Assembly (NCBI RefSeq): GCF_900142175.1
Contig: NZ_FQZX01000001.1
Span: forward strand, 310,001-374,000
Reading direction: 5' to 3'
DNA: 64,000 nt
From: Maribacter aquivivus
Lineage (GTDB): Bacteria; Bacteroidota; Bacteroidia; Flavobacteriales; Flavobacteriaceae
Part shown: positions 3,269-27,998 of the stretch, piece after piece
Numbering within the stretch: position 1 is the first letter of the stretch
How the letters are laid out: the number at the start of each line of letters is the position of its first letter
Program-made: the position numbers and the translations under genes
Notes under the pieces: model-generated
What the model saw: only the letters and a program-made list of their open reading frames with translations
Databases searched by the model: none
Told to the model about the DNA's origin: nothing

Positions 3269-3946
3269 TTGGCAATACTACAGAACAACAAAGCAGAGCG
3301 AGACGAAAAGGTTATAGATTTCACCCTCGCAAACTCAAATAATCTTTTACTTATTTTCACCAGAAACCCTGAAATAGGTAAAGGAAAAAGACGCTTAGCA
3401 GCTACTGTTGGCGACCAAGCTGCATTTGATATTTATAAATTTTTATTGGACCATACCGTAGCGATCACCAAAAATTTATATGCCGAAAAAGAAGTGTATT
3501 ATTCCGAAGAAATTTGGGAAAATGATATTTGGGACAATCAAAAATTTGGTAAAAAAATACAAGTGGGCGAAGATTTAGGTGTTCGTATGGCAAATGCTTT
3601 TCAAGAGGGATTTCAAAACGAATATCAAAAAATCATTATCATTGGTAGTGATATGTTAGACCTTTCTCAAGAAGATTTAGAAAATGCTTTTAAATCTTTA
3701 GAAAAAAATGATTTTGTAGTTGGTCCTGCTGAAGACGGCGGTTATTATTTACTTGGCATGAAGCAGTTTATGCCTGCACTTTTCAAAAACAAAGCATGGG
3801 GTACAGAAACCGTTTTAAAAGATACATTAGCTGATCTTGAAAATAAAACTACTGCCCTCCTAGAAACAAAAAACGATGTAGATTATTACGAGGACATAAA
3901 GGATATTGATGCCTTTAAACCCTTTTTAAAACATATAAAATTATGA
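3269..3946 (+). CDS. TIGR04282-like transferase (DUF2064), arsenosugar/rSAM-selenodomain associated
   Basis: Nucleotidyl/glycosyltransferase-fold protein (GT-A like). LLIFTRNPEIGKGKRRLA near residues 27-45 is the N-terminal family motif, and IIGSDMLDL and GPAEDGGYYLLGMK are the later signature blocks. These fit the family named arsenosugar biosynthesis glycosyltransferase, or rSAM/selenodomain-associated transferase 1. The first in-frame start is TTG at 3269, which makes an N-terminal tail of about 25 residues before the motif; no ATG is available before it. It overlaps the next gene (PNP) by 4 bp, so the pair is translationally coupled. The donor and acceptor sugars are not known from sequence. 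Confidence 0.85.
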   Translation: MAILQNNKAERDEKVIDFTLANSNNLLLIFTRNPEIGKGKRRLAATVGDQAAFDIYKFLLDHTVAITKNLYAEKEVYYSEEIWENDIWDNQKFGKKIQVGEDLGVRMANAFQEGFQNEYQKIIIIGSDMLDLSQEDLENAFKSLEKNDFVVGPAEDGGYYLLGMKQFMPALFKNKAWGTETVLKDTLADLENKTTALLETKNDVDYYEDIKDIDAFKPFLKHIKL

Positions 3947-4758
3947 TGAAAGATGAACTTTTAGAATCTGTAGCATACCTTAAAAATAAAGGTTTTGACA
4001 AACCAGAAATTGGCATAGTTCTAGGCACAGGATTAGGAAAACTGGTTGATAGTGTTGAAGACCCTATTGAAGCTCATTACAATCACATTCCATTTTTTCC
4101 ATTGGCAACCGTAGAATTTCATACAGGTAAATTGGTATATGGCACTATTTCCGGTAAGAAAGTAGTGGTAATGCAAGGTCGTTTTCACCTGTACGAAGGG
4201 TACGACTTTTTAGATATTACTTACCCTATTCGCGTAATGCATATGTTGGGTATTTCTAAATTATTCATTTCTAATGCTGCCGGTGCAGTAAACCTTGATT
4301 ATAAAAAGGGCGATATGATGCTGATAGAAGATCACATTAACCTACAAGGTGGTTCCCCATTAGCTTTTAAAGGTGTTAGTGATTTTGGCGAGCGTTTTGC
4401 AGACATGTCAGAACCTTATGATTTAGATATGCGCAACAAATTAATGACCATTGCTAAAGAGCATAATATCTCCCTGAAAACTGGCGTTTATGCCTCTGTT
4501 GTTGGACCACAATTAGAAACTAAGGCAGAATACAGAATGATTAAATTAATTGGTGCAGATGCTGTTGGTATGAGTACCGTACCAGAGGTTATTGTTGCCA
4601 ATCATTTGTCATTACCTATTGTTGCCGTTTCTGTTTTAACAGATGAATGTGACCCAGACAATTTAAAGCCTGTTGACATCAGTGAAATCATCGCTATTGC
4701 TGAAAAAACGGAGCCTAAAATGGTGAAATTATTTCAAGAATTAATCAAGCAATTGTAA
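3943..4758 (+). CDS. Purine nucleoside phosphorylase I
   Basis: Cleaves purine (deoxy)nucleosides with phosphate to base and ribose-1-phosphate. PNP-family motifs are clear: GIVLGTGLGKL near residue 24, FHTGKLVYG, MQGRFHLYEGY, ISNAAGAVN (phosphate/base site), and VGMSTVPEV with a later Asn/Asp-type base-recognition loop SVLTDECD. Its 271 aa is the usual length of trimeric PNPs. The start overlaps the stop of the preceding transferase (ATGATGA), so either of two adjacent ATGs could be used. Lying between the two transferases suggests it removes a purine base from a nucleoside intermediate of their pathway rather than serving general salvage; that role is inferred. Confidence 0.93.
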   Translation: MMKDELLESVAYLKNKGFDKPEIGIVLGTGLGKLVDSVEDPIEAHYNHIPFFPLATVEFHTGKLVYGTISGKKVVVMQGRFHLYEGYDFLDITYPIRVMHMLGISKLFISNAAGAVNLDYKKGDMMLIEDHINLQGGSPLAFKGVSDFGERFADMSEPYDLDMRNKLMTIAKEHNISLKTGVYASVVGPQLETKAEYRMIKLIGADAVGMSTVPEVIVANHLSLPIVAVSVLTDECDPDNLKPVDISEIIAIAEKTEPKMVKLFQELIKQL

Positions 4759-4802
4759 GGATTCTCAATATTTGGCTACCATAAGTAAGCAAACAGTATT
4801 GT

Positions 4803-5507
4803 ATGAGTGCCCACCAGCCAACCATTAGTATTATTATACCGGTATTGAATGAAGAAAAGTACATTAGGGATGTACTTTTCGCTATTTCAACCAATGCAGG
4901 CTCTGACCGCATTAAAGAAATACTAGTGGTTGATGGCGGTAGCACAGATAACACCGTTGCAAATGCTATAAAACATGGCGCATCTGTTGTTAAAAGTAAA
5001 AAAGGACGTGCTGCACAAATGAACCTTGGGGCAACAAAAGCCAGTGGTGATATCCTTTATTTTTTACATGTAGATTCTTTACCTCCAAAAGATTTTGACA
5101 GTGCTATTCTAAATGAAATTGACCAAGGTTTTGAGGTGGGTTGTTTTCAAATGCGCTTTAATAGTAACAGCCGCTTTTTAAAATTCTTTTCTTGGTGCAC
5201 CCGTATTAACCATCAAATTTGTCGTGGCGGAGATCAGTCATTGTTTATCACTAACAAACTTTTTCACCAACTTAATGGCTTCAATGAAAAATTTGTGATT
5301 TACGAAGACAATGAATTTATTAAACGGGTTTACAAAATAAAAACTTTTAAGATAATCTCATCTGCCGTGACTACTTCTGCACGACGTTATGAAGAACGCG
5401 GTATGGTAAGATTACAATGGCATTTTGGGATGATTCATTTAAAATACCATTTAGGCGCTAAACCAACGGAGCTGCATCAATACTATTTGAAATATATTGC
5501 GGCTTAA
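4803..5507 (+). CDS. TIGR04283-like family 2 glycosyltransferase, arsenosugar/rSAM-selenodomain associated
   Basis: GT-A fold transferase: ISIIIPVLNEEKYI at residues 8-21, VVDGGSTDNT (UDP/metal site), KGRAAQMNLGA and ILYFLHVDSLPP, all features of the family called rSAM/selenodomain-associated transferase 2. Ends in a basic C-terminus with no membrane segment. It is the last gene of the four-gene run from 2739 and is convergent with the amidase gene (3-bp gap). The partner radical SAM enzyme (ArsS type) and arsenite methyltransferase are not in this window. Confidence 0.87.
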   Translation: MSAHQPTISIIIPVLNEEKYIRDVLFAISTNAGSDRIKEILVVDGGSTDNTVANAIKHGASVVKSKKGRAAQMNLGATKASGDILYFLHVDSLPPKDFDSAILNEIDQGFEVGCFQMRFNSNSRFLKFFSWCTRINHQICRGGDQSLFITNKLFHQLNGFNEKFVIYEDNEFIKRVYKIKTFKIISSAVTTSARRYEERGMVRLQWHFGMIHLKYHLGAKPTELHQYYLKYIAA

Positions 5508-5510
5508 TCT

Positions 5511-6545
5511 TTATTCTCCCTCAAAATCTAACAGCACTCCTTCACTTATCCATTTGGCGAGTGCCTGTCGATTGTCTGGATCCAGAATTCTGACTTGATC
5601 TTTTTTATTCCTAATATTCCCAATCTCAATGTATGCCATTGCAGGGTGTGTTTTCTTTACTAAATACAGTGATGTTCTATCTTCAAAAGTACCCGAATAC
5701 GTTCTATTAGGCTGGTATTTTTTGTACTTATCCCCAAAGGTCTTATGAATACTTTCTGCTAGTTTTTCTCCATTTTTACTTTTCTCGTGGTGGTAAAAGA
5801 AAACATCTATATTTTGATTTTCGCTTCTACTATCTACATGGGTTACGATCAAGCGCTGGTATTTTCCTCTATTTTCTTTATACAAATCATTAACGATATA
5901 TACCCGCTGTTTTAATCTAGCAACTTGGTTTAGCGGTATTGTTTTATTCATATATGCCACCTCATCATGGTCAATTTCAAGAACGAAATCATCTCTAATT
6001 CCGTCATTTTCGTCTTGTATAATGATATATACTTCTGCACCATGAGCCAATAGCTCTTTAGCCAATCTTAATGTAATATCATAGGCATATTCATCTTCAG
6101 CTATCGCCTTGCCTGCATAAACACCCATAGCACCAGGATCAGGACCACCGTGACCAGAGACCAAATAATATACGTTACCTTTTAACCGTTCGCTTTTAGT
6201 AATTACTGTTTTATGCTGCTCTCCAAAAATGTCATAAGAATCACTTTCTAACTCTTTAATTTCTTTTGATTGCAGTTGCAGGGAATCTACAATTGCAACA
6301 GTATCTAATTTTATTCTTGGAAGCACATAAATTCTACCAGCGAATAGGTGCACACTATCGCGTAAATCATGATGATTTAAGGCTACAAATTCATCATAAA
6401 CCTCATACGGATTAACACCTTGCTTTCTTAACAGCGACAAAATTCCGTCGCCGGGTTCTGCCACTACCGTTTTCAACGAATCTTGCGCAACGCAAAAGGC
6501 GCTCAAAAACAATAAAAACAAAATTGTAAAACTGTTGTGTTTCAT
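5511..6545 (-). CDS. LysM-like domain plus N-acetylmuramoyl-L-alanine amidase (Amidase_3)
   Basis: Cuts the bond between muramic acid and the peptide in peptidoglycan. Signal peptide (ends FCVAQ), then a LysM-like segment at residues 25-78 (GDGILSLLRKQGVN ... GRIYVLPRI), a linker, and the amidase domain from about 124. Zinc ligands are visible as SGHGG (His132), Glu near 150 and THVDSR; the catalytic glutamate lies in AYIEIGNI near the C-terminus. The domain order (LysM first) suits a periplasmic enzyme used in cell separation. Followed on the same strand, 66 bp upstream, by the Omp85-family gene. 344 aa. Confidence 0.88.
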   Translation of the reverse strand: MKHNSFTILFLLFLSAFCVAQDSLKTVVAEPGDGILSLLRKQGVNPYEVYDEFVALNHHDLRDSVHLFAGRIYVLPRIKLDTVAIVDSLQLQSKEIKELESDSYDIFGEQHKTVITKSERLKGNVYYLVSGHGGPDPGAMGVYAGKAIAEDEYAYDITLRLAKELLAHGAEVYIIIQDENDGIRDDFVLEIDHDEVAYMNKTIPLNQVARLKQRVYIVNDLYKENRGKYQRLIVTHVDSRSENQNIDVFFYHHEKSKNGEKLAESIHKTFGDKYKKYQPNRTYSGTFEDRTSLYLVKKTHPAMAYIEIGNIRNKKDQVRILDPDNRQALAKWISEGVLLDFEGE

Positions 6546-18707: not shown

Positions 18708-19835
18708 ATGAATCCATTAAAGTCAATAACCTTATACCATTTAATGATTAAAGATCAGAAGATGATCGGTATTAAATTCTCACCAGATAAATTGATACAG
18801 AACTTGATCAAGGGGCTTCCTAACCCTAAATGGAGTCAACAATATAATATGGCTTATATACTGAACACAAAAGAAAACCTGGGAATTCTCTTTACTACTT
18901 TTAAAGGCATCGTATGGATTAATTATAATAAATTTTACCCTAACAAACCTGTCAACACCTCTAATGAAATAGTGGACGTTCAATGGTTTAGAAAAAGGTC
19001 AATAGTACCAGGCTACCGACTTTGCCCAGAAGAATACTTGTTAAAACTGGAACTAAAAAAATACGCCAATAGTACTGTTAAAACCTATGTAACCTTCTTC
19101 GAAATGTTTATAAACCATTATAGTGATCGAAAATTAGAGACGCTTGATGAAGGTGACATACGGGCTTATCTACAAGTTCTAATTCAAAGAAATGCATCTA
19201 ACTCTTATTTAAATCAAGTCATCAACTCCATTAAATTTTATTACGAAGTTGTATTAGGAATGCCTAATCGGTTTTATGAAATAGAACGACCAAGAAAAGA
19301 GTATAAACTACCAACGGTAATTTCAAAAGAGGAAATAATATCTATAATTGAACATACCAACAACTTAAAGCACAGATGCATTGTACAACTACTGTATGGT
19401 TCTGGTTTGCGCCGTAGCGAGCTTTTGAACCTAAAACTAAATGATATTGATAGCAAACGAATGCTTATAAGAGTTGAAGGAGCAAAAGGCAATAAAGACC
19501 GACTTACACTTTTATCAAAGAATGCACTCGAAGATTTGAGGATGTATTTTAAGGAATGGAAGCCTAAAGAATTTCTTTTCGAAGGGCGCAAAGGGGGAAG
19601 ATATAGCCCAGAAAGTGTAGTGCAAATAGTTAAACAAGCCGCTAATAAAGCAGGTGTAAAACAAAATGTGTCACCGCATACACTTCGTCATAGTTTTGCT
19701 ACACATCTTTTAGAATCTAATGTTGACCTTAGGCAGATTCAAGTACTTTTAGGGCATGGCTCAAGCAAAACAACAGAAATTTATACCCATGTTGCAACAA
19801 ATACTTTTAAAACAATTAAAAATCCTTTAGATTAG
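18708..19835 (+). CDS. XerD-like tyrosine recombinase of the cassette array
   Basis: Site-specific DNA recombinase. Residues 1-95 form an N-terminal segment not found in XerC/D; 105-185 are the SAM-like core-binding domain (NSTVKTYVTFFEMFINH); 200-375 are the catalytic domain. Catalytic residues are Arg235 (GSGLRRSELL), Lys260 in GAKGNKDR, HTLRH (His324, Arg327), LLGHGS (His350) and nucleophile Tyr359 (EIYTHV). Between Lys260 and His324 there are only about 60 residues, without the added alpha-I2 segment that marks integron IntI. It reads toward, and ends 13 bp before, an inverted-repeat site that opens the cassette array, so it is the likely catalyst of cassette movement. That link is inferred from position. 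Confidence 0.9.
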   Translation: MNPLKSITLYHLMIKDQKMIGIKFSPDKLIQNLIKGLPNPKWSQQYNMAYILNTKENLGILFTTFKGIVWINYNKFYPNKPVNTSNEIVDVQWFRKRSIVPGYRLCPEEYLLKLELKKYANSTVKTYVTFFEMFINHYSDRKLETLDEGDIRAYLQVLIQRNASNSYLNQVINSIKFYYEVVLGMPNRFYEIERPRKEYKLPTVISKEEIISIIEHTNNLKHRCIVQLLYGSGLRRSELLNLKLNDIDSKRMLIRVEGAKGNKDRLTLLSKNALEDLRMYFKEWKPKEFLFEGRKGGRYSPESVVQIVKQAANKAGVKQNVSPHTLRHSFATHLLESNVDLRQIQVLLGHGSSKTTEIYTHVATNTFKTIKNPLD

Positions 19836-19847
19836 AGTTTATATAAT

Positions 19848-19886
19848 GGGGATATATGTAATTGTACACATATCCGTACGTTAGCT
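19848..19886 (+). other. attI-like recombination site at the head of the cassette array
   Basis: GGATATATGTA (19850-19860) and TACACATATCC (19865-19875) form an inverted repeat (10 of 11 pairs), followed by the core GTTAGCT at 19880-19886. This core is the exact reverse complement of AGCTAAC at 20346-20352, the end of cassette 1. The right part (TACACATATCCGTAC-GTTAGC) resembles the right end of attC8 (CATACACAAGACC-GTTAGC), so it is either attI or a very short attC. Confidence 0.6.
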
Positions 19887-19941
19887 ACAAGTACTCCAAA
19901 AATAAAAATATTGATATTATGGAAAAAAAAAAATAAAAGAT

Positions 19942-20166
19942 TTGTCAAAAGAAGAGCTTAAACGTAAAGAAAAAAGCCTAAAATCAATAATAATATTCTG
20001 CATACCAATAATTATCGGACTTTTTTATTTTGTTCTTCGAGATTATTTTGATGGAAAAGAAATTGACTTTGCGATGCTGACTATTGCAATATGTACAATT
20101 GGTGGTCCAGTTACAGTATACCCTGAATTAAAAAAAGTTCAAGAAGAACTAAAAAACAAGAAGTAA
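19942..20166 (+). CDS. Cassette 1: small membrane protein, start disrupted at a poly-A tract
   Basis: 74 residues: a lysine/glutamate-rich start, one or two membrane helices (IIIFCIPIIIGLFYFVL, FAMLTIAICTIGGPV) and a charged tail. The frame can begin at TTG 19942. A better start, ATG at 19919, is followed by GAA and an 11-A run (19923-19933) that leads straight into TAA; with 12 A the ATG would be in frame with this protein. So the gene is either off by one base, decoded by slippage on the A run, or phase-variable. I do not recognise a family. Confidence 0.55.
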   Translation: MSKEELKRKEKSLKSIIIFCIPIIIGLFYFVLRDYFDGKEIDFAMLTIAICTIGGPVTVYPELKKVQEELKNKK

Positions 20167-20234
20167 TTAACCCAAGCATCTACTAGAATTCTAAGTTTAT
20201 TTCCAAAAATGGTATTTACTCGTTCGGAAAAAAA

Positions 20235-20345
20235 TTTAGTTTGCGCAGATGGATTTCACTCGGTCGGAATTCTTACATGGGACTCTACTCGGATGGAAAA
20301 TCAAAACGGAATCGAAATGTGCTTACTCGTATGTGTCGTACCAGC
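20235..20345 (+). repeat. Cassette 1 tail, related to the tail of cassette 7
   Basis: Non-coding stretch between the cassette 1 gene and its attC. It shares TAGTTTGCGC (20237-20246), ACTC-GG-GGAAAA blocks and ATGTGCTTACTC (20317-20328) with 24847-24945, in the same order and at similar spacing. Possibly the remains of a gene or a regulatory module carried by several cassettes. Confidence 0.5.
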
Positions 20346-20531
20346 AGCTAACAATACCTATAATTAATGCGGGTGCTGGTTCTAGCCGAAATGTTGGTTG
20401 ATTTGCATTTTCGCAAAAGCTTTTTTCTTATTTTTAAACTCAAACTAAAAAACGCTAAAAGCTTTTACTTGTGCTTGGCTTGAAATTCCCTGAATTTCTA
20501 CGCCGCACTAATCATAGCTTAAGCGTTATCT
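20346..20531 (+). repeat. attC1 (186 bp)
   Basis: Left core AGCTAAC (20346-20352), right core GTTATCT (20525-20531). The outer arms pair: CTATAATTAATGCGG on the left against the complement of CCGCACTAATCATAG on the right (13 of 15), with two extra bases on the right arm. Confidence 0.75.
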
Positions 20532-20536
20532 GCAAT

Positions 20537-20872
20537 TTGAGAAACGACAAACTTTTGATATTAGATTTAGATGGAGTTCTAATAACAAATCCATCTTGGA
20601 AAGCCGACCGAATTCACTCGGATGGATATTCTGAATTTAATAAATCTTGTGTTGAAAATCTAAACAGACTTCTCACTCTTGCGGAATTTGACATTTGGTT
20701 GAGCTCAACTCGTCGAACCGTGAAAACTCTGAATGAATTTAATCTGATTTTTAAAAATCGTGGAATAAAAAAAGATATCGTTGGATTTTTACCAGAATAC
20801 GCAGATTGCAGAAATCGAAAAGAGGAAATCCTAAAATTTATAACGGAATTTAAAGCGTCTGATTTTGACTGA
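20537..20872 (+). CDS. Cassette 2, gene a: truncated HAD-fold (Swiss-army-knife RNA repair type) protein
   Basis: Starts 12 bp after the cassette junction with TTG, reading MRNDKLLILDLDGVLITN, so the HAD motif I (DLDGV) lies near residue 10; WLSSTRR near residue 54 is the motif II region of HAD_SAK domains. The frame stops at SDFD, just where the acidic motif IV would follow. Immediately downstream another frame reads LTKGLNSEKLKEAIEKI, which looks like the usual C-terminal helix of this family. So the gene seems to have an internal deletion or frameshift near 20865-20880 and may be inactive. A start further upstream (20471) lies inside attC1 and is unlikely. Confidence 0.6.
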   Translation: MRNDKLLILDLDGVLITNPSWKADRIHSDGYSEFNKSCVENLNRLLTLAEFDIWLSSTRRTVKTLNEFNLIFKNRGIKKDIVGFLPEYADCRNRKEEILKFITEFKASDFD

Positions 20873-20923
20873 ATTGACAAAAGGCTTAAATAGTGAAAAA
20901 TTAAAAGAGGCTATTGAAAAAAT

Positions 20924-21208
20924 ATGAAACGAAATTGTCAAAAATGTTCTGATAGAGAATTTGAAGTTCCTGAATATACTCTTGAACAAAAAAAGATGCT
21001 ATCTGATTTAAAAGCAAATAAAAAACTCGGAGAATTAATCACAAAAATAGAATCACTACACAATATCAAAAGTATTGACGCCAAATTTAATTTTATGCAT
21101 ATCAACACAAAATACGGAAAATGTAATCGTTGCAAAGTTGATAACCTTAAAGGAGAATATGTGATTTGTCCGAAATGTAAAGCGCTAAATTTCAATTGGA
21201 AAGTATAA
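20924..21208 (+). CDS. Cassette 2, gene b: small zinc-ribbon protein, function unknown
   Basis: 94 residues with two Cys pairs at each end: NCQKCSD at the N-terminus and CNRCKV ... VICPKCKAL at residues 66-87. The middle is helical and charged (TLEQKKMLSDLKANKKLGELI). A structural zinc site is likely. Its ATG overlaps the stop of the downstream remnant frame of the HAD gene (ATGA), so the two form a small operon within one cassette. The gene ends 8 bp before attC2. Confidence 0.65.
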   Translation: MKRNCQKCSDREFEVPEYTLEQKKMLSDLKANKKLGELITKIESLHNIKSIDAKFNFMHINTKYGKCNRCKVDNLKGEYVICPKCKALNFNWKV

Positions 21209-21215
21209 AAACTGT

Positions 21216-21348
21216 AGCTAACAAGGTGTATAATTCATTGCTAGTTATAGCCTACTTACGAAAGTCCTCGCGGACTTTCTATCTGTGATTTATTTGCTAA
21301 CTTTAATGCTTAAAACACGCAACGAAATCATACACTATACCGTTGTGG
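21216..21348 (+). repeat. attC2 (133 bp, short class)
   Basis: Left core AGCTAAC (21216-21222), right core GTTGTGG (21342-21348). The arms AAGGTGTATAATTCATTGC and GCAACGAAATCATACAC pair. A central perfect hairpin GAAAGTCC-TCGC-GGACTTTC corresponds to GAAAATCC-TCGC-GGATTTTC in attC8, a compensated change. Confidence 0.8.
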
Positions 21349-21700
21349 GGCATACTGTGGTTCTGAAGAACGGTACGCAATCAGAACGCAACGGCGAACG
21401 GACGCCAGCCCAACGACCGCTGATTTTTTGCGGTGGTTTGTGCCTCATCGAAAGAAAAAAGCGGTGAAAAATCCCAAATTGAGGAGGGTTACGGAGCAGT
21501 TCGTGCAAAAAACCGCTTTTTTTGGGCTTGTTATCGGCGGACGAAATAAAGGTCAAAGCAATTTTGGTTTGGACTGGAACTAATCGATTGGTAGCAAGGC
21601 GACTGCGGTGAAAATGAAAATCAGGACGGAGTGTTATCTAAGTAATGTCCCCTTGCTACGGAGTGTTTGCTTAGTTCAGGATTTTGAAAAATGGTACGCC
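21349..21700 (+). ncRNA. Cassette 3: no convincing gene, structured non-coding candidate
   Basis: About 350 bp between core GTTGTGG and its partner at 21698-21707. It is visibly more GC-rich than its neighbours. I see no frame with a plausible protein; the frame from 21285 begins inside attC2, and the reverse frame has no family resemblance. Several inverted repeats stand out: AAAAAAGCGGT (21455-21465) / ACCGCTTTTTT (21512-21522), the second arm ending in a T run; GTAGCAAGG (21591-21599) / CCTTGCTAC (21651-21659); ACCGC/GCGGT at 21416-21434. This suggests a structured RNA or a structured DNA module, but expression is not shown. Confidence 0.4.
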
Positions 21701-21870
21701 CCACAACATTATATAAGTGATCATAGCAGTTTAAGGATAAATCGATTGGATCGTGTATTTTTGCAATGGCGCAATGCTTGATTTTGAATAATTTATCAAT
21801 CCTTGCGCAGAAAATGTCGAAAGTTTGGTAACTTTTTGCCCTGCTACGACACTTATATTTAGCGTTGTAC
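21701..21870 (+). repeat. attC3 (170 bp)
   Basis: Left core CCACAAC (21701-21707; ten-base match to the cassette start as GCCCCACAAC), right core GTTGTAC (21864-21870). The arms AACATTATATAAGTG and CACTTATATTTAGCGTT pair with two unpaired bases; CATAGCAG pairs with CTGCTACG. Confidence 0.75.
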
Positions 21871-21873
21871 ATA

Positions 21874-22515
21874 ATGTTGAAAAAAGTACTTTTCATAATA
21901 TTTCTAACTGCTCAATCAGCCTTTTCACAGGTCGAAAAAGTGGATTATGAATTGTATTCTTTGATAATATCGGAGCAATTAGAATTTGGAATTAAAAGCA
22001 GCATTGACTCAGTTTTATTAATTGAGCAATTCGAAAACAAATTTGACAATTTATATGATGTTTTTAACTCAAAATCTGATTCTATTTCGAAGTCAGACAT
22101 AAATTTCATTTCAATAAACACGGGAAACGATACAATCTTTATAAAGCGACTTATACAGGAATCTAAATTTAGAAATTCTGTGAAGAGATTGACAACTGAT
22201 TTTGGTTTAAGCCCGAAAATTAATGCAAATCTATTATCGACGGAAAAGCTAAATATTCAGTCAATAACTTCAAAAAAATACTATTCGATTTTTGGTAAAA
22301 AATTCAAGCGAAAAAATCCTTGGAAACGGATTATCAAAAAATACGGAACAAAAAATATCATTGAATTCTCTAAAGTTAAGTACAACGGAAATTTAGCTTC
22401 AGCTTATTTCGGATTTCATTGTGGAGGTTTATGTGGAAATGGAAGGGTAGTGATTTTCGAGAAAGTTAATGGAGTGTGGGAAATTCTGACTTCAATAAAC
22501 CAATGGGAATCCTAA
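21874..22515 (+). CDS. Cassette 4: secreted protein of unknown function
   Basis: Signal peptide MLKKVLFIIFLTAQSAFSQ, then about 195 residues without recognised domain; C-terminal block YFGFHCGGLCGNGRVVIFEK with two cysteines, then VWEILTSINQWES. The ATG lies 3 bp after the attC3 core, the close spacing typical of cassette genes, so the leader is essentially absent. Preferred over a TTG inside the core. Function unknown; the CGGLCG block suggests a disulfide in an exported protein. Confidence 0.75.
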   Translation: MLKKVLFIIFLTAQSAFSQVEKVDYELYSLIISEQLEFGIKSSIDSVLLIEQFENKFDNLYDVFNSKSDSISKSDINFISINTGNDTIFIKRLIQESKFRNSVKRLTTDFGLSPKINANLLSTEKLNIQSITSKKYYSIFGKKFKRKNPWKRIIKKYGTKNIIEFSKVKYNGNLASAYFGFHCGGLCGNGRVVIFEKVNGVWEILTSINQWES

Positions 22516-22526
22516 AAAAACACTAT

Positions 22527-22722
22527 GTACAACAAAGCCTAAACGTAATGCGGAGTTTTGGGCTAAATCGAAAGGTCTGTGTATATTTATGAAGTCGCTA
22601 AATCTTTGGGATTTAGCTTTGGGCAAAAAAAGAAAAAACAAAACCAAAAGCTTTAGCTTCGTGCGCAGTCGGAAACGAAAAGTTTCCTTGCCCCCGCACT
22701 ACGCTTAGCCGAACCGTTAGCA
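22527..22722 (+). repeat. attC4 (196 bp, long class)
   Basis: Left core GTACAAC (22527-22533), right core GTTAGCA (22716-22722). Outer arms GCCTAAACGTAATGCGG and CCGCACTACGCTTAGCC pair. Inside are hairpins GCTAAATC-TTTGG-GATTTAGC and GGAAAC-GAAAA-GTTTCC, both with compensated variants in other copies. Confidence 0.85.
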
Positions 22723-22728
22723 ATAATT

Positions 22729-23238
22729 ATGAATCATATCAAATACTTAATTCTTTTAGTTCTTATTTCAGTATCTATTGAAGTTGTTTCACAAGATACC
22801 TTGGACATGAAAGAAGTGTATATCGACAATGATTTGGTCTATAAAATGGATGGTCAAAGATTTACTGGACTTGCTCAACAGAAACGGAAAAATGGAAAAC
22901 TGAATTATGAAGAACAATATAAAAACGGAGTAATTCTATGGAGTAACTTATACTTTAATACTAAAGACAAGAAAGTCTCTGATAAAACAATCTACAACCG
23001 TTATAAATTATGGGTAATTGAAAAGGAGATAAGACTCCGACTATCACAAGATACTTTACATATCAAAACCTACGACGAAAACGGAAAAAAAATATTACTT
23101 GAACAGTTTGAGAATAACAAAGTGACCTATAGCTGTGAATACAACGGAAAGAAAAGACATGGACGGGAAATGTGTTATGACGATGATGGAAATCAGTTGA
23201 TTTTCCAGTATGTGAATGGAAAAAAAGTAAAAGAATGA
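22729..23238 (+). CDS. Cassette 5, gene a: secreted MORN/YwqK-like repeat protein
   Basis: Signal peptide (LISVSIEVVSQ), then repeats of the form KNGKLNYEEQYKNG, DENGKKILLEQFENN, YNGKKRHGREMCYDDDGN, the YwqK/MORN-variant pattern. 169 aa. The ATG is 6 bp after the attC4 core. It overlaps gene b by 4 bp (ATGA), so the two are coupled. A host-chromosome protein of the same type occurs at 15524-16015, but similarity is only at repeat level. Confidence 0.72.
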   Translation: MNHIKYLILLVLISVSIEVVSQDTLDMKEVYIDNDLVYKMDGQRFTGLAQQKRKNGKLNYEEQYKNGVILWSNLYFNTKDKKVSDKTIYNRYKLWVIEKEIRLRLSQDTLHIKTYDENGKKILLEQFENNKVTYSCEYNGKKRHGREMCYDDDGNQLIFQYVNGKKVKE

Positions 23239-23528
23239 AACCATTACTAATACTAGGAGTCGGTCTTGTACTATGGGCGCTAAGTATTTATTTAGTTCGC
23301 AAATGGAAACATTTTTGGATTTTCTTTGCTATAAATTTTGCAATATTAGCCATTTACACCACATACATAATCTATGGAAATTTGGATTTTTTAGGACATG
23401 ACGAATATGGATTGGGAAGATTAATGATGTTATTCGCAATACCCTTAATACATGTTTTAATTGCGTTCATTCTTGCTATGGTTATAAATTACCGCCTGCA
23501 AAAAATAACTATTGCCAACAATGCCTAA
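23235..23528 (+). CDS. Cassette 5, gene b: small integral membrane protein
   Basis: 97 residues with three predicted helices: LLILGVGLVLWALSIYL, FWIFFAINFAILAIYTTYI and LMMLFAIPLIHVLIAFILA. Not assignable to a family. Its stop codon lies within the left arm of attC5 (TAA in GCCTAAAC), as often seen for integron cassettes. Probably works with the secreted protein of gene a. Confidence 0.7.
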   Translation: MKPLLILGVGLVLWALSIYLVRKWKHFWIFFAINFAILAIYTTYIIYGNLDFLGHDEYGLGRLMMLFAIPLIHVLIAFILAMVINYRLQKITIANNA

Positions 23529-23708
23529 ACGTAATGCGGGCTTTGGGGCTAAATCGAAAGGTCTGTGTATATTTATGAAGTCGCTAAATCTTTGGGATTT
23601 AGCTTTGAACGAAAAAAAGAAAAAGCAAAACCAAAAGCTTTAGCTTCGTGCGTAGAAGGAAACTCAACGATTCCTTGCACCGTACTACGCTTAGCCGCAC
23701 CGTTGTAC
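23513..23708 (+). repeat. attC5 (196 bp, long class)
   Basis: Left core TGCCAAC (23513-23519), right core GTTGTAC (23702-23708). Outer arms GCCTAAACGTAATGCGG and CCGTACTACGCTTAGCC pair; inner hairpin GCTAAATC/GATTTAGC as in attC4. Confidence 0.85.
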
Positions 23709-23756
23709 GCAAGCATGAAAATCGGAACAAACAAGAAATATATGAACATCAAGAAA

Positions 23757-24233
23757 ATGAAAAAATCAATTTTCCTCCTATTACTTTTAACCTCTGTATC
23801 TGTATTTTCCCAAAACTCAGATTACAAGGTATCCTCCTATCTAACGGAAGGAACAAAAGCACCGAATACTCATTATATCGGAGAAGCTTGGTTGAATGCT
23901 ATTATCCACGATGATGAGGAATTGGGTTATAATATTACAAAAGCAACTTTTAAAGCTAACTCGACCTTGGACTGGCATAAACATGGAACTGCGCAAGTCT
24001 TAATAATTGTAGATGGAGAAGCATATTATCAGGAGAAAGGAACTGCGCCTGTAATTTTGAAAAAAGGCGATGTAATTAAATGTGAGAAAGACATTGAACA
24101 TTGGCATTCTTCTACCAAATTTAGTGATGTAACATATTTAGCTTTATATGGTGGTGGACAACCAACTTCTTGGACTGAAGTAGTTACGCAGGAGTATTAT
24201 GATGAAGTAGCCGAAAAACTAAAGGGTAATTGA
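23757..24233 (+). CDS. Cassette 6: secreted cupin-domain protein
   Basis: Signal peptide MKKSIFLLLLLTSVSVFSQ, then one cupin barrel (residues 50-130). Metal ligands are apparent in DWHKHGTAQVLIIVDGE (His, His and a Glu further on) and IEHWHSS (third His). Such single-domain cupins with export signals occur in Bacteroidota, but the substrate is unknown. Upstream in-frame ATGs exist at 23715 and 23742; I prefer 23757 because the signal peptide starts there. A still longer frame starts in attC5 and is spurious. Confidence 0.78.
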   Translation: MKKSIFLLLLLTSVSVFSQNSDYKVSSYLTEGTKAPNTHYIGEAWLNAIIHDDEELGYNITKATFKANSTLDWHKHGTAQVLIIVDGEAYYQEKGTAPVILKKGDVIKCEKDIEHWHSSTKFSDVTYLALYGGGQPTSWTEVVTQEYYDEVAEKLKGN

Positions 24234-24261
24234 AATAACACACTCGGACGGAAATGCCAAC

Positions 24262-24459
24262 GTACAACAATGCCTAAAAACAATACGGGCTACGGGTTTT
24301 GACGAATGGCTTGCGTATTTTTATGAAGTCCGCCAAAACAATTGGATTTTGGGATTTTAAAAGAAAAAAATAAAACCAAAACAAAAGGTTTCGGCTAATC
24401 GCTGAACGGAAAGCAAACGCCAGTTTGCTCCCGTACTGTTCTTAGCCGAGCCGTTGTAA
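24262..24459 (+). repeat. attC6 (198 bp, long class, variant stem)
   Basis: Left core GTACAAC (24262-24268), right core GTTGTAA (24453-24459). The inner stem has changed on both sides to CCAAAA/TTTTGG, and the second hairpin is GCAAAC-GCCA-GTTTGC instead of GGAAAC/GTTTCC. Confidence 0.8.
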
Positions 24460-24479
24460 TCAATAGCCAAAAAAATAAA

Positions 24480-24830
24480 ATGTTTGGAAACAGATTTTTG
24501 AACCGATTGACTTTTACCATTCTTTTACTACTTTCAATTTTATTAGCATCGTGTTTTCAATCTGAAAAGGAATTTATTGAAGAGTATCGTAAGGAGCTAA
24601 AACCTATTGAAATTCAAGGACTAATCATAGCAACAAGAAAGAACAACAAAGGGCGATTTCGTTTTTTGATAACTCAAAATATGGATACTACTACTATATT
24701 TTATACTGGAGTATTATATCCGAGTAAAAAGTTTCATGTAGGAGATTCAATTTTCAAACCTAAAAACCAAATGAAATTTACAGTTAAAAGGAAAGATTCC
24801 ATATTTGAATATGAAGAAAGAAAATATTAA
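24480..24830 (+). CDS. Cassette 7: small lipoprotein of unknown function
   Basis: Lipoprotein signal with lipobox LLASC (Cys25), then about 90 residues rich in Lys/Glu (FIEEYRKELKPIEIQGLI ... VGDSIFKP ... DSIFEYEERKY). The C-terminal half reads like a small beta-barrel. 116 aa; I do not recognise a domain. Confidence 0.7.
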   Translation: MFGNRFLNRLTFTILLLLSILLASCFQSEKEFIEEYRKELKPIEIQGLIIATRKNNKGRFRFLITQNMDTTTIFYTGVLYPSKKFHVGDSIFKPKNQMKFTVKRKDSIFEYEERKY

Positions 24831-24846
24831 TCCAAAAGAAGATAAG

Positions 24847-24961
24847 TAGTTTGCGCGAATGGACACCTTACTCAAAGGTAACTGTTACGCAGATGGAATG
24901 TACTCTGGCGGAAAAGTAGAAAACGTAATCGCTATGTGCTTACTCAGAAGGCAGCTACTGA
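24847..24961 (+). repeat. Cassette 7 tail, related to cassette 1 tail
   Basis: Non-coding stretch sharing TAGTTTGCGC (24847-24856), a GGCGGAAAAGTAGAAAACG-like block and ATGTGCTTACTC (24934-24945) with 20237-20328. The remaining 24831-25180 is this tail plus attC7; no other gene is seen. Confidence 0.5.
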
Positions 24962-25157
24962 TTACAACAAAACCTATAAACAATACAGGCTTAGGGCTTA
25001 AACAAAAGGTTTGTGTATTTTTATAAAGTCCGCAAAATCTTTGGGATTTTGCTTTAAACAAGGAAAAGAAAAAACAAAACAAAAAGATTTTGCTATGTGC
25101 GTGGGGGAAAGCAAACGCCAGTTTGCTCCCGTACTGTTCATAGCTAAAACGTTGTAC
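24962..25157 (+). repeat. attC7 (196 bp, long class, variant stem)
   Basis: Left core TTACAAC (24962-24968), right core GTTGTAC (25151-25157). Inner hairpin GCAAAATC-TTTGG-GATTTTGC is a compensated form of the attC4/5 stem; second hairpin GCAAAC-GCCA-GTTTGC. Confidence 0.85.
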
Positions 25158-25180
25158 GCAAGCTGAAAAACTCACTCGAA

Positions 25181-25660
25181 TTGACAAAAAAGATAATATT
25201 TGGAATTATAGCATTCATAATCGGATTTGGAATCGCATTGTATTCTGAATCTTTTTTTCGTGAAATAATTCAAGATGTTTTTAAATGGTCAACTTCTGAC
25301 AAAATTAAATTTGTTGCAAATAATATGTATATTTTCTCTGATAAAACATATTACATAACATTGGGAATAGTTCCTTTGATTTTGACACTTGAAAATCTGA
25401 ATAAGAAGATGACTACATTTCTAAAAAATGGAATTATTTGCTTACTGATTTTCGGAATTTCTTTAGTCACTATTTCAGTTATCGATGCGAATATAAAAAT
25501 TGCAGAATGTACAGCCTGTGATGACGGAATTAGAAAATTACATTGGAATGGAATAAATTACGGACTGATTATAGGTGCAAGCGCCATCATTTCGATTGTT
25601 CCGAGTCTGATAAGAATAATAAAACGAACGAAAAAAGCCAGCGTACAACAACGTGTATAA
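25181..25660 (+). CDS. Cassette 8: small membrane protein
   Basis: 159 residues starting at TTG 25181 with about four hydrophobic helices (IIFGIIAFIIGFGIALY, TLGIVPLILTLE, NGIICLLIFGISLVTISVI, LIIGASAIISIVPSLI). The loop CTACDDG between helices 3 and 4 has a Cys pair. The stop lies inside the left arm of attC8. Function unknown. Confidence 0.65.
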   Translation: MTKKIIFGIIAFIIGFGIALYSESFFREIIQDVFKWSTSDKIKFVANNMYIFSDKTYYITLGIVPLILTLENLNKKMTTFLKNGIICLLIFGISLVTISVIDANIKIAECTACDDGIRKLHWNGINYGLIIGASAIISIVPSLIRIIKRTKKASVQQRV

Positions 25661-25774
25661 TTCATTGCTAGTACTTGCCTACTTACGAAAATCCTCGCGG
25701 ATTTTCTATTCGGTTTGTATTTGCTAATTTAGTTGCTGAAACACGCAACGAAATCATACACAAGACCGTTAGCA
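25643..25774 (+). repeat. attC8 (132 bp, short class)
   Basis: Left core GTACAAC (25643-25649), right core GTTAGCA (25768-25774). Same architecture as attC2, with central hairpin GAAAATCC-TCGC-GGATTTTC. Confidence 0.8.
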
Positions 25775-25793
25775 GTAATATCAAAAAAATAAA

Positions 25794-26837
25794 ATGACAT
25801 TTAAAATATTAGCATTTAGTACATTTTTACTTTTATCAAGTAACATTTTTGGGCAATTAAAATTTGATACCGATATTTTGGACCTCAATAAAAAGGGAAA
25901 TATTTCTCGTATTGAACTAAAATCGTATAATTATAATAGAGGTGCAAAGAAACAAGAACTAAAAAAGACAGAAGTTTTTACTTTTAATTCAAAAGGGTTT
26001 AGAGTATTATATTTCTCAAATGACTACTTATCCCAAAAAGACTCTATTGTATATGATAATTCCAATAACATAAAAGAGATATACCTTTTTAATAAAGATG
26101 GTTCAAAGAAAGAAAGGATTCACGCCTTTTATGATTCGCAAAACAAACTAAATTCTGTAAAGTACTATTTGTACAATACTATCAAGAAGGAACCTATAAA
26201 TTACAACAACTTACATTTTTTAAATGAAACACCTTCTAAAAATGGAACTATTCAAAAATACAAATTTGATGACGGTATTGAACAAGAGTTTCACTTCAAT
26301 AAAGAAGGTCTCATGACAAAGAAGACTCGCGGAAACATAACGGACTCAAATTATCAAAAACTAGAATATGAGTATTCCGAAAAATATGACAACAAGATAA
26401 AATCTAATAAATATCGAAAAAAGTATGAACATTTATTAGTGCAACAATTTCAAAATAATTGTATTCTTTTAAACTCCCTTTATCAAGATATTTTTGATGC
26501 TAGTTCTCATATTACACAACGAGAAATTACAACAATCAAGACATTTCAGAAAAATGACACATTAATAAATATAGATTACTTTGAATATGACTCAAGCGGA
26601 AATAAATCAAAATCAATTGTGGATTACATAGCTGCTGATATAAAGTATAGTGTTGAATACAAGTACAATGACAAGAATAATTTAATTGAAGAATCCTATA
26701 TAAGAAAAAATGGTACAAAAACTTATCAATATGAATATGCATATGATTCTAATAATAATTGGATAGAGAAAACTTCTTACAGAAAGCATCTAAAAAGATA
26801 TGCCGACATTACAAAAAGAATAATAGTGTACAAATAA
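25794..26837 (+). CDS. Cassette 9: secreted YD/RHS-like repeat protein
   Basis: Signal peptide (FLLLSSNIFGQ), then weak 20-25-residue repeats of the YD/RHS type, for example KYNDKNNLIEESYI and YEYAYDSNNNWIEKTSY. 347 aa, much the largest cassette gene, and lacking any RHS core toxin end. Role unknown; similar proteins in Bacteroidota are exported and uncharacterised. Confidence 0.65.
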   Translation: MTFKILAFSTFLLLSSNIFGQLKFDTDILDLNKKGNISRIELKSYNYNRGAKKQELKKTEVFTFNSKGFRVLYFSNDYLSQKDSIVYDNSNNIKEIYLFNKDGSKKERIHAFYDSQNKLNSVKYYLYNTIKKEPINYNNLHFLNETPSKNGTIQKYKFDDGIEQEFHFNKEGLMTKKTRGNITDSNYQKLEYEYSEKYDNKIKSNKYRKKYEHLLVQQFQNNCILLNSLYQDIFDASSHITQREITTIKTFQKNDTLINIDYFEYDSSGNKSKSIVDYIAADIKYSVEYKYNDKNNLIEESYIRKNGTKTYQYEYAYDSNNNWIEKTSYRKHLKRYADITKRIIVYK

Positions 26838-26842
26838 TACTA

Positions 26843-27039
26843 CTGCTAACAATGCCTAAACGTAATGCGGACTTTAGGGCTAAATCGAATGGTCTGTGTA
26901 TATTTATGAAGTCGCTAAATCTTATGGATTTAGCTTTGGAACAAAAAAGAAAAAGCAAAACAATAAGCTTTAGCTTCGTGCTAAGACGGAAACGAAAGGT
27001 TTCCTTACTTCCGCACTACGCTTAGCCGAACCGTTGGCA
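26843..27039 (+). repeat. attC9 (197 bp, long class)
   Basis: Left core TGCTAAC (26843-26849), right core GTTGGCA (27033-27039). Outer arms GCCTAAACGTAATGCGG and CCGCACTACGCTTAGCC pair; second hairpin GGAAAC/GTTTCC. Together with the IS end that follows, it fills the gene-free stretch 26838-27180. Confidence 0.85.
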
Positions 27040-27051
27040 ACAATTAGGTAC

Positions 27052-27430
27052 GTTAAAGGCACATCGTTTACAAAGTTAAAGGGACATCGTTTACACTTTT
27101 TTAGGAGTTAATTTGAGGGTACGATATACAAACAACGTTTACACTTTTTAAGTTGCATTTGAAACTAAAATTCAGATGCTATGCCTTGGAAAGAACAGAC
27201 GATTATGGAACAAAAAATTGAATTTATCTGTGAATGGCGAACTGGAAAATTCACTATCACGGAGCTTTGCAGAGTCTTTAAAATCTCAAGACCGACGGCT
27301 TACAAAATCATTGCCCGGTTTGAAAATGAAGGTTATGAAGGTCTTAGTGAACTCTCCAGAAAACCACGTAGCCCACATCCTAATTCCACCGATGAAAAGA
27401 TGGTGAACAGGATTCTTGAATTGAAGGTAA
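27052..27430 (+). mobile_element. Left part of an IS481-type insertion sequence (truncated)
   Basis: Starts with two direct copies of GTTAAAGGxACATCGTTTAC (27052-27072 and 27075-27095, 20 of 21 identical), resembling IS481-family termini, then a spacer and the N-terminal 80 codons of a transposase. No right end or remaining transposase is found. Confidence 0.65.
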
Positions 27431-27773
27431 AAGATGGCATACAATACTTTGCATTTGATTTCGAAAATAAAACCATTGTTCTTCAAAGTTTCGGCGAAAA
27501 TAATTTGGCAGCAACAAGCGTTAATGGGGAAACTCACAGAATCAATATCAACAAAGAGATTAACTCAGACACTCTACTACTTCCTAAAATTGAAGAATAT
27601 CGAGTTTAGCATAATAAGCATCGTTATAAGTTCTATTATTGTGACAAAAAATGTAGCGGAATAAAAACTGACTATTATTCAAATGAATCTACTCGAACCG
27701 ATGGAAAATTTAGTAAAGGACTTGCAATTGAGGAATTAAAAAAAATCTATATCAGAAAGAAATCACTTAGCTA
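27181..27773 (+). pseudogene. IS481 transposase N-terminus fused to a decayed cassette gene
   Basis: Residues 1-80 (MPWKEQTIMEQKIEF ... CRVFKISRPTAYKIIARF ... LSRKPRSPHPN) are the helix-turn-helix part of an IS481 transposase. After RILELK the sequence changes to unrelated coding-like sequence (DGIQYFAFDFENKTIVLQ). A TAG at 27607-27609 interrupts it, and the same frame resumes (HRYKFYYCDKKCSGIKT ... LAIEELKKIYI) up to the TAA that overlaps the next start. So an IS insertion followed by a deletion replaced the 5' end of a cassette gene, which then gained a nonsense codon. Confidence 0.65.
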
Positions 27774-27998
27774 ATGAAATATAAGAATCTAATTATTACA
27801 ATTGGGGTTATAGGAAATATCCTGCTTTTAATCAGGTTCTTAATTGACCCCTATTTAATATTTTGCGAACCTTGTATTTCAGGTCGCACGTGCCCACCTT
27901 GTCGCACCGAGTTTGCTAACAATATTTGGATTTATTTCCTCATATGGAACCTGTTGGTTGTACTATTAGTTACGCTTAGCAAACAAAAAATAAAATAA
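27774..27998 (+). CDS. Cassette 10 remnant: small membrane protein
   Basis: 74 residues: helix LIITIGVIGNILLLIRFLI, a Cys-rich loop CEPCISGRTCPPCRTEF, then helix IWIYFLIWNLLVVLLVTL. The start overlaps the stop of the preceding decayed frame (TAATG). No attC follows, so the array ends here. Function unknown; the four-Cys loop may bind a metal. Confidence 0.6.
   Translation: MKYKNLIITIGVIGNILLLIRFLIDPYLIFCEPCISGRTCPPCRTEFANNIWIYFLIWNLLVVLLVTLSKQKIK

Follow-up and report, generated by a model that had tools for sequence, protein, structure and literature searches.

A chromosomal gene-cassette array preceded by a XerA-like tyrosine recombinase in Maribacter aquivivus

Which kind of system assembles gene cassettes at a locus that looks like an integron, next to a recombinase that does not look like an integron integrase? 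The question is raised by Maribacter aquivivus (Flavobacteriaceae; assembly GCF_900142175.1), in a stretch of 64,000 nt of contig NZ_FQZX01000001.1 (positions 310,001 to 374,000, forward strand). This whole stretch is called the window below, and coordinates are those of the window unless another sequence is named. A first-pass annotation of the window had described an integron-like cassette array. As argued below, the locus is very probably a cassette platform in the chromosome, integron-like in its working yet run by a different, XerA-like tyrosine recombinase.

Nine cassettes of 522 to 1265 bp, named c1 to c9, follow one another head to tail on the + strand from 19880 to 27032. The ten junction GTTs are located at 19880, 20525, 21342, 21864, 22716, 23702, 24453, 25151, 25768 and 27033. 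Each of the nine units starts with a GTT and carries at its end a long hairpin-forming attC-like element, bounded by ...AAC and the next GTT. A tenth unit, from 27033 on, has no attC-like element and leads into a transposase-type helix-turn-helix fragment (27181-27609); this array end occupies 27033-27998 of the + strand. The heads of c1 to c9 are largely the reverse complement of the bases preceding AAC in their own terminal elements. Over the first ten bases, ten match in c3, c4, c7 and c9, nine in c8 and c5, and eight in c1, c2 and c6. The first-pass annotation had announced ten units in one direction, all starting with a GTT core and nine of them ending in an attC-like element, together with head/tail core counts for single cassettes. 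The ten GTTs and nine elements bear out the first statement, and our recount (10/10 for c3, c4, c7 and c9) agrees with the second.

The specificity of this head-tail rule was evaluated at the variable positions 4 to 10. Own head and own tail pair in 55 of 63 cases (5, 5, 7, 7, 6, 5, 7, 6 and 7 from c1 to c9). Permutation of heads and tails gave a mean of 27.7/63, and 55 or more was reached in 4 of 100,000 permutations. Pairing of each tail with the next head, as laid out in the array, amounted to 25/63. A covariance model trained on 40 sites, all from other genomes (R1), recovered the nine window sites (9/9) with the same ends and on the same strand, at E values from 6e-21 to 0.0015; its best match outside the array in the 64 kb had an E value of 0.097. 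Using a dynamic-programming detector started at the fixed position 19880, the nine sites were obtained, plus three spurious links past the array. Without a fixed start, the array scored 55.8, with c1 replaced by a wrong first link, whereas none of 12 control stretches of the window exceeded 21.2. The repeats are located at the cassette ends rather than being unrelated to cassette boundaries. Overall, the observed array is confirmed as real and as more than chance.

Two features preceding the array had been overlooked by the first-pass annotation, namely the recombinase gene at 18708-19835 and an attI-like palindrome at 19850-19875. The gene, recognized by profile searches and alignment, is intact, shares the orientation of the cassettes (+ strand) and encodes a tyrosine recombinase of 375 aa. 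The protein comprises a conserved N-terminal region (residues 1-105), a SAM-like core-binding domain (about 108-184) and a catalytic domain (205-364). Residues R235, K260, H324, R327, H350 and Y359 are invariant in the alignment of the recombinase family, and we take them to be the tyrosine recombinase catalytic set. The protein scores above the cut-off of the XerA-type profile NF040815. With the integron integrase profile TIGR02249, it reaches 206 bits, below the curated cut-off of 265.

The closest solved structures by sequence include IntI4, and the C-terminus ...NPLD resembles the ...SPLD/SPVD of IntI. The alignment with IntI4 breaks at a place where the window recombinase has 23 residues and IntI4 65. 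The IntI-specific insertion, of about 40 residues, is absent from 25/25 members of the family and present in 5/5 canonical IntIs of the same phylum. According to the excerpt of PMC7790495, the insertion region holds the I2 helix, which is stated there to be necessary for cassette capture and to be found in no other protein. The relevant section of PMC9668308 takes the insertion as defining IntI, and that of PMC8138268 describes it in the integron-like subgroup as not fully conserved, yet essential. The N-terminal region of about 105 residues is conserved across the 25 aligned family members and is weakly similar in structure to the N-domains of UvsW and XPB. IntI4 begins about 14 residues before the shared part and therefore has no room for such a region; the canonical IntI sequences in the alignment were trimmed to their profile match. 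In the recombinase tree, whose root is uncertain, 12/12 IntIs form their own clade with a support of 100/100. The genome of M. aquivivus also contains further, separate Xer-like genes.

The attI-like palindrome (19850-19875, + strand) has 11-nt arms around a 4-nt centre and ends 4 nt before the first GTT, itself located 47 bases after the last sense codon of the recombinase. The same layout was observed in relatives. In these, the GTT was picked independently of the palindrome, and the centre was sought 14-21.5 bp upstream. It was found 16-19 bp before the GTT in 88 of 90 distinct segments, the commonest distance being 17.5 (52 segments). With the centre fixed at 17.5, arm pairing was 0.62 within a locus as compared to 0.45 across loci. 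By comparison with relatives, the recombinase gene is flanked by an attI-like site whose insertion point is predicted to lie in the GTT. The region is not carried unchanged by relatives, the 90 segments showing 75 distinct 12-base heads after the attI GTT.

To describe the sites as a class, 218 unique cassettes from 29 of 32 loci were used, chosen by a core of at least 9/10 and by site length, the doubtful locus L072 being included. Core positions 5-9 pair in 99-100% of these cassettes, as compared to 28-38% after shuffling. Position 11 is A in 100% of the heads and C in 89% of the tails, with a Watson-Crick pairing of 0.00; the A.C mismatch is present in 9/9 window sites. Positions 12-14, which were not used for selection, pair at 0.91, 0.92 and 0.78 versus 0.67, 0.48 and 0.45 in shuffled sets. 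In 42 canonical cassettes from six IntI loci of the same phylum, pairing extends to position 11 (0.69) and is then at chance level. The inner stem, predicted solely from the alignment, consists of three short helices with 13 pairs. Eleven of these pairs vary on both sides, with 109 double-change cells versus 27.5 after shuffling and only three one-sided. The near absence of G-U steps, as seen from the few one-sided changes, fits DNA rather than RNA pairing. Within the admitted ranges, the sites fall into length clusters of 46-66, 111-125 and 156-202 nt. None of the nine window heads conforms to the R' box GTTRRRY; this is a weak test, since GTTATGT, the most frequent head among the canonical controls, deviates from it as well.

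R1 gave no match at E values up to 1 in nine loci with a canonical IntI from the same phylum, some of which lack a clear array. Within the set of sequences searched, its matches were in L126 (genome G303) and in the Polaribacter phage P12002L. In L126, from a genome of another class, a canonical IntI stands with nearby sites of the flavobacterial class (3341-6004), and a recombinase of the family is encoded elsewhere in the genome (L137). In the lytic phage P12002L, about ten sites of this class (10 R1 matches at E 0.04 or better) are found at about 30-40 kb near methyltransferase genes, mostly oriented opposite to the surrounding genes. The excerpt of PMC9892861 reports that IntI1 recombines one attC of this phage.

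Do the units move? We compared 414 cassettes, after 14 duplicate records had been dropped. Seventeen pairs within the same array are at least 95% identical. None of them is adjacent, which rules out simple tandem duplication. In 10 of the 17 pairs, the homologous stretch starts 0-4 nt ahead of one core and stops 3-7 nt beyond the next; in the other seven, identity extends further at one or both ends. Near-identical, non-adjacent cassettes cut at the cores indicate, as far as sequences can tell, that the units move. Their content is diverse. An open reading frame (ORF) of at least 50 aa is present in 404 cassettes, and in 387 of these the longest one reads along the + strand. The 25 Pfam families shown for 99 cassette proteins include DNA methylases, leucine-rich and TPR repeats, a dehydrogenase, MutS_V, HNH and several DUFs, each of the listed families occurring in one protein.

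The association of recombinase, attI-like site and array recurs in relatives. A recombinase of at least 52% identity is encoded in 50 of 299 sampled genomes of the same family, M. aquivivus included; one of these 50 genes has a stop codon and one is cut by a contig end. Thirty-one relative loci were fetched from this sample. In most of them, a short stretch with a palindrome leads from the stop codon to the GTT, and the sequence after the GTT differs. In 24 of the 31, the cassette chain begins at the attI GTT. Genome G286, of the same genus, has two copies of the recombinase; their attI segments differ by 1 of 47 bases, and their first cassettes are different. In addition, 80 named loci were fetched, some of them from genomes already in the first sample, and the 49 with more than 1.2 kb downstream were counted. 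The named loci belong to Maribacter, Arenibacter, Aquimarina, Winogradskyella, Gillisia, Psychroflexus, Lacinutrix, Marivirga and metagenome bins of other Bacteroidota families. At least one good cassette, defined by a core of at least 9/10 and a site length within the admitted classes, was found in 41 of the 49, at least two in 36, and a start at attI in 27. Overall, relatives of this platform are common in Bacteroidota, a recombinase of the same family immediately preceding the first GTT in numerous genera and in several families of the phylum. A canonical IntI was found at E 1e-80 or better in 57 of 198 genomes of the phylum, and none of these 57 belongs to the family of M. aquivivus, of which at least 19 genomes were searched.

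Similar elements, cassettes and attI-like sites are also dispersed in the genome of M. aquivivus, some of them far from the recombinase. The minus strand of contig C3 (L051, about 349-354 kb) bears a perfect attI-like palindrome followed by four linked cassettes with cores of 9-10/10, and no recombinase match is present within the fetched stretch. On contig C2 (L054, about 2820-2930, near 719.8 kb), a stretch ...IKNPLD similar to the recombinase end is followed by an attI-like palindrome and a GTT head, apparently the remnant of a second platform.

From these data, a mechanism can be proposed. A cassette would be released by the recombinase in circular form, the GTT cores at either end being joined to each other. 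This circle would carry an attC with an outer stem of up to 14 bp containing one mismatch, an unpaired spacer, the inner three-part stem and a variable loop. Insertion would follow at the attI-like site that adjoins the recombinase gene on its downstream side, the crossover taking place inside the GTT. The attC would act as one folded strand, probably the bottom strand, and the A.C mismatches together with the N-terminal region may take over the part played in true integrons by the extrahelical bases and the I2 helix. We infer that catalysis is due to the 18708-19835 recombinase. The parts of the scheme that the sequences support are the boundaries, the head-tail rule, the covariation of the sites, the fixed position of attI and the recurrence of near-identical cassettes cut at the cores.

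Several observations weigh against this scheme. The link between recombinase and array is one of position. In seven of the 31 relative loci, no chain is linked to attI: contig ends truncate L081 and L086, the cassettes of L061, L070 and L082 come farther downstream, and L072 and L076 are long enough, yet show no clear array. Similarly, 8 of the 49 named loci have no good cassette. In the window, the head of c1 fits the tail of c2 in 10/10 positions and its own tail in 8/10 (19880-21341), and c1/c2 may be a composite cassette. The top strand of the sites folds too, not the bottom strand alone; a covariation measure based on further pair types is not above shuffles (59/500 reach it); and a double-stranded inverted repeat would give the same covariation. 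Only two whole-cassette matches were found between different arrays, and the sequences compared contained no recombination event, excised circle or strain difference of one cassette.

Four other explanations have to be weighed. That the locus is a canonical integron with a divergent or decayed IntI is suggested by the adjacent recombinase, the attI, the attC and the head-tail rule, by the place of IntI4 among the nearest solved structures and by the ...NPLD terminus. However, an insertion missing in all 25 family members and present in all five canonical IntIs, a score below the integron-integrase cut-off, a separate IntI clade in a tree of uncertain root and a different attC class make this highly unlikely. 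The term integron-like in the first-pass annotation stands as regards the circle-type cassette ends, the attC-like folded sites, the attI-like site and the adjacent tyrosine recombinase. It does not extend to an integron in the strict sense, as the recombinase has no IntI-specific insertion and reaches 206 bits against a cut-off of 265, and the sites are a class of their own. It is also conceivable that the neighbouring recombinase is incidental and that cassette movement is due to a different enzyme, either a Xer protein of the host or an external canonical IntI. The further Xer-like proteins encoded in the genome, the cassettes and attI-like sites far from the recombinase and the activity of IntI1 on one attC of P12002L, as given in the excerpt of PMC9892861 for a phage with 10 R1 matches, would all suit this idea. 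It is nevertheless very unlikely in view of the recurrence of the same recombinase family directly before the first GTT across genera and families, and of the 0/57 canonical-IntI genomes that fall in the family of M. aquivivus.

Recombination could, alternatively, take place on double-stranded DNA at inverted-repeat sites, with no folded single strand. Xer-like enzymes normally act on double-stranded sites, the attI is palindromic, and the recombinase lacks the I2 helix on which IntI depends for single-strand sites. In contrast, the core arms are 46-202 nt apart in the circle, far from the usual spacing of 6-8 bp in Xer core sites; the inner stem is maintained by compensatory change; and a constant asymmetric mismatch would be invisible in a duplex. 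We regard this possibility as unlikely. Finally, immobile units that arose as interspersed repeats or by tandem duplication of genes would account for similar elements dispersed elsewhere in the genome, but not for the head-tail rule, the permutation test and the non-adjacent, near-identical cassettes cut at their cores, so that their probability is negligible. A cassette platform served by the XerA-like recombinase remains our preferred explanation.

Relatives of the recombinase are also found on plasmids. They are accompanied by arrays on Rufibacter and Chryseobacterium plasmids, and by less clear ones at two Persicobacter plasmid loci. On a Parabacteroides plasmid (NZ_OY725747.1; L236, 9954-15040), a related recombinase (42% identity over residues 49-375) heads a one-directional array whose genes include type VI secretion system (T6SS)-immunity and SMI1/KNR4 types. 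Junction cores are ATT and the elements measure 34-40 nt. A hairpin is present at 7 of 11 candidate junctions, which delimit six units; five of these pair head to tail in 6-7 of 7 variable positions and one in 3/7, its tail probably having been placed three bases off. By our own identification, this array is probably rAID-1, reportedly described by Ross et al. in 2019 as recombinase-associated acquired interbacterial defence clusters of gut Bacteroidales.

The resistance gene tet(X3) of Acinetobacter plasmids is preceded, at a distance of about 190 bp, by a truncated relative of the recombinase (54% over residues 138-375). The gap between both was read on one plasmid (NZ_CP041297.1; L232), where the truncated recombinase occupies 4055-4720 and an attI-like palindrome with a GTT head, with A at position 11, is found at about 4860-4905. 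Judging from this arrangement, tet(X3) is placed as if it were the first cassette of a platform; at the far end of the tet(X3) unit, no R1 match was obtained. The arrangement was published as xerD-tet(X3), and the excerpt of PMC8635130 gives it no cassette reading.

These observations lead to a broader and more tentative proposal, which we hold to be somewhat short of probable. Bacteroidota may possess a second, parallel kind of integron, with folded single-stranded cassettes and no I2 helix, in which a XerA-like enzyme would read the hairpin through its N-terminal region and the constant A.C mismatches. It would unite the flavobacterial arrays, the ATT-core gut immunity arrays and the platform beside tet(X3), and may be the door by which tet(X3) left Flavobacteria. 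The I2 helix being called necessary in the excerpt of PMC7790495, a widespread platform devoid of it would mean that folded-cassette capture arose another way. The integron search of PMC9668308, in the section consulted, requires the IntI-specific profile and probably would not report the window recombinase. A large cassette reservoir may thus have been overlooked, as 50 of 299 genomes of the same family carry the recombinase. On Acinetobacter plasmids, tet(X3) comes directly after such a platform.

All cassettes of the window and their attC-like sites are on the + strand, and the sites are given here with their R1 E values. Cassette c1 (19880-20524) ends in a site at 20350-20527 (E 2e-8). By Pfam, c2 (20525-21341; site 21220-21344, E 1e-18) encodes a HAD_SAK_2-type protein (20537-20872), followed by a second small ORF (20924-21208). 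Cassette c3 (21342-21863, core 10/10; site 21705-21866, E 0.0015) contains no ORF of at least 80 aa. Despite this, it combines a perfect core with the strongest fold (bottom-strand z of -8.3), and its product may be an RNA or a very small protein. One ORF with no Pfam match is found in c4 (21864-22715, core 10/10; site 22531-22718, E 2.5e-8). Cassette c5 (22716-23701, core 9/10; site 23517-23704, E 3.5e-7) has two ORFs, the first with a MORN_2 match below cut-off. A cupin protein is encoded by c6 (23702-24452; site 24266-24455, E 1e-6), with Cupin_2 above cut-off and a mandelonitrile-lyase model below its cut-off. Pfam matches are lacking for the small ORF of c7 (24453-25150, core 10/10; site 24966-25153, E 2.4e-8) and for the ORF of c8 (25151-25767; site 25647-25770, E 6e-21). 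Cassette c9 (25768-27032, core 10/10) encodes 347 aa with a DUF3598_N match below cut-off and bears the final site of the array (26848-27035, E 7.5e-8). Elsewhere in the window, 50839-58413 encodes a protein of 2524 aa that contains DUF285 in 11 stretches, as well as a signal domain for type IX secretion.

How does the platform compare with known systems? It shares with a chromosomal IntI integron a recombinase beside an attI-like site, a one-directional array of mostly single-gene cassettes, GTT...AAC cores, heads complementary to their own tails, a folded and covarying site, repeated cassettes and detached genomic clusters. The recombinase next to the array has complete catalytic residues, and the attC structure is kept by compensatory change. 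Up to about position 11, the head-tail rule is alike in the 42 canonical control cassettes from six loci. The differences concern the recombinase, which has no IntI-specific insertion and has a conserved N-terminal region for which IntI4 lacks room; the outer stem, made of 10 bp, an A.C mismatch and about 3 bp in the window class versus about 11 contiguous bp; and the attI, with a variable palindrome centred about 17 bp before the GTT. In class 1 integrons, the recombinase does not run in the direction of the cassettes, whereas that of the window does. By the recombinase test that defines membership of the integron family, the window platform falls outside it.

The array presumed to be rAID-1 is likewise headed by a related recombinase and follows the same head-tail rule. 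It differs by its ATT cores and elements of 34-40 nt, as compared to GTT cores and sites of about 120-190 nt in the window; no T6SS-immunity or SMI1/KNR4 Pfam match was found among nine scanned cassette ORFs of the window. As compared to XerA, XerC and XerD, the window recombinase has an extra N-terminal region and stands at the head of a cassette array, in a genome that has separate Xer-like genes of its own.

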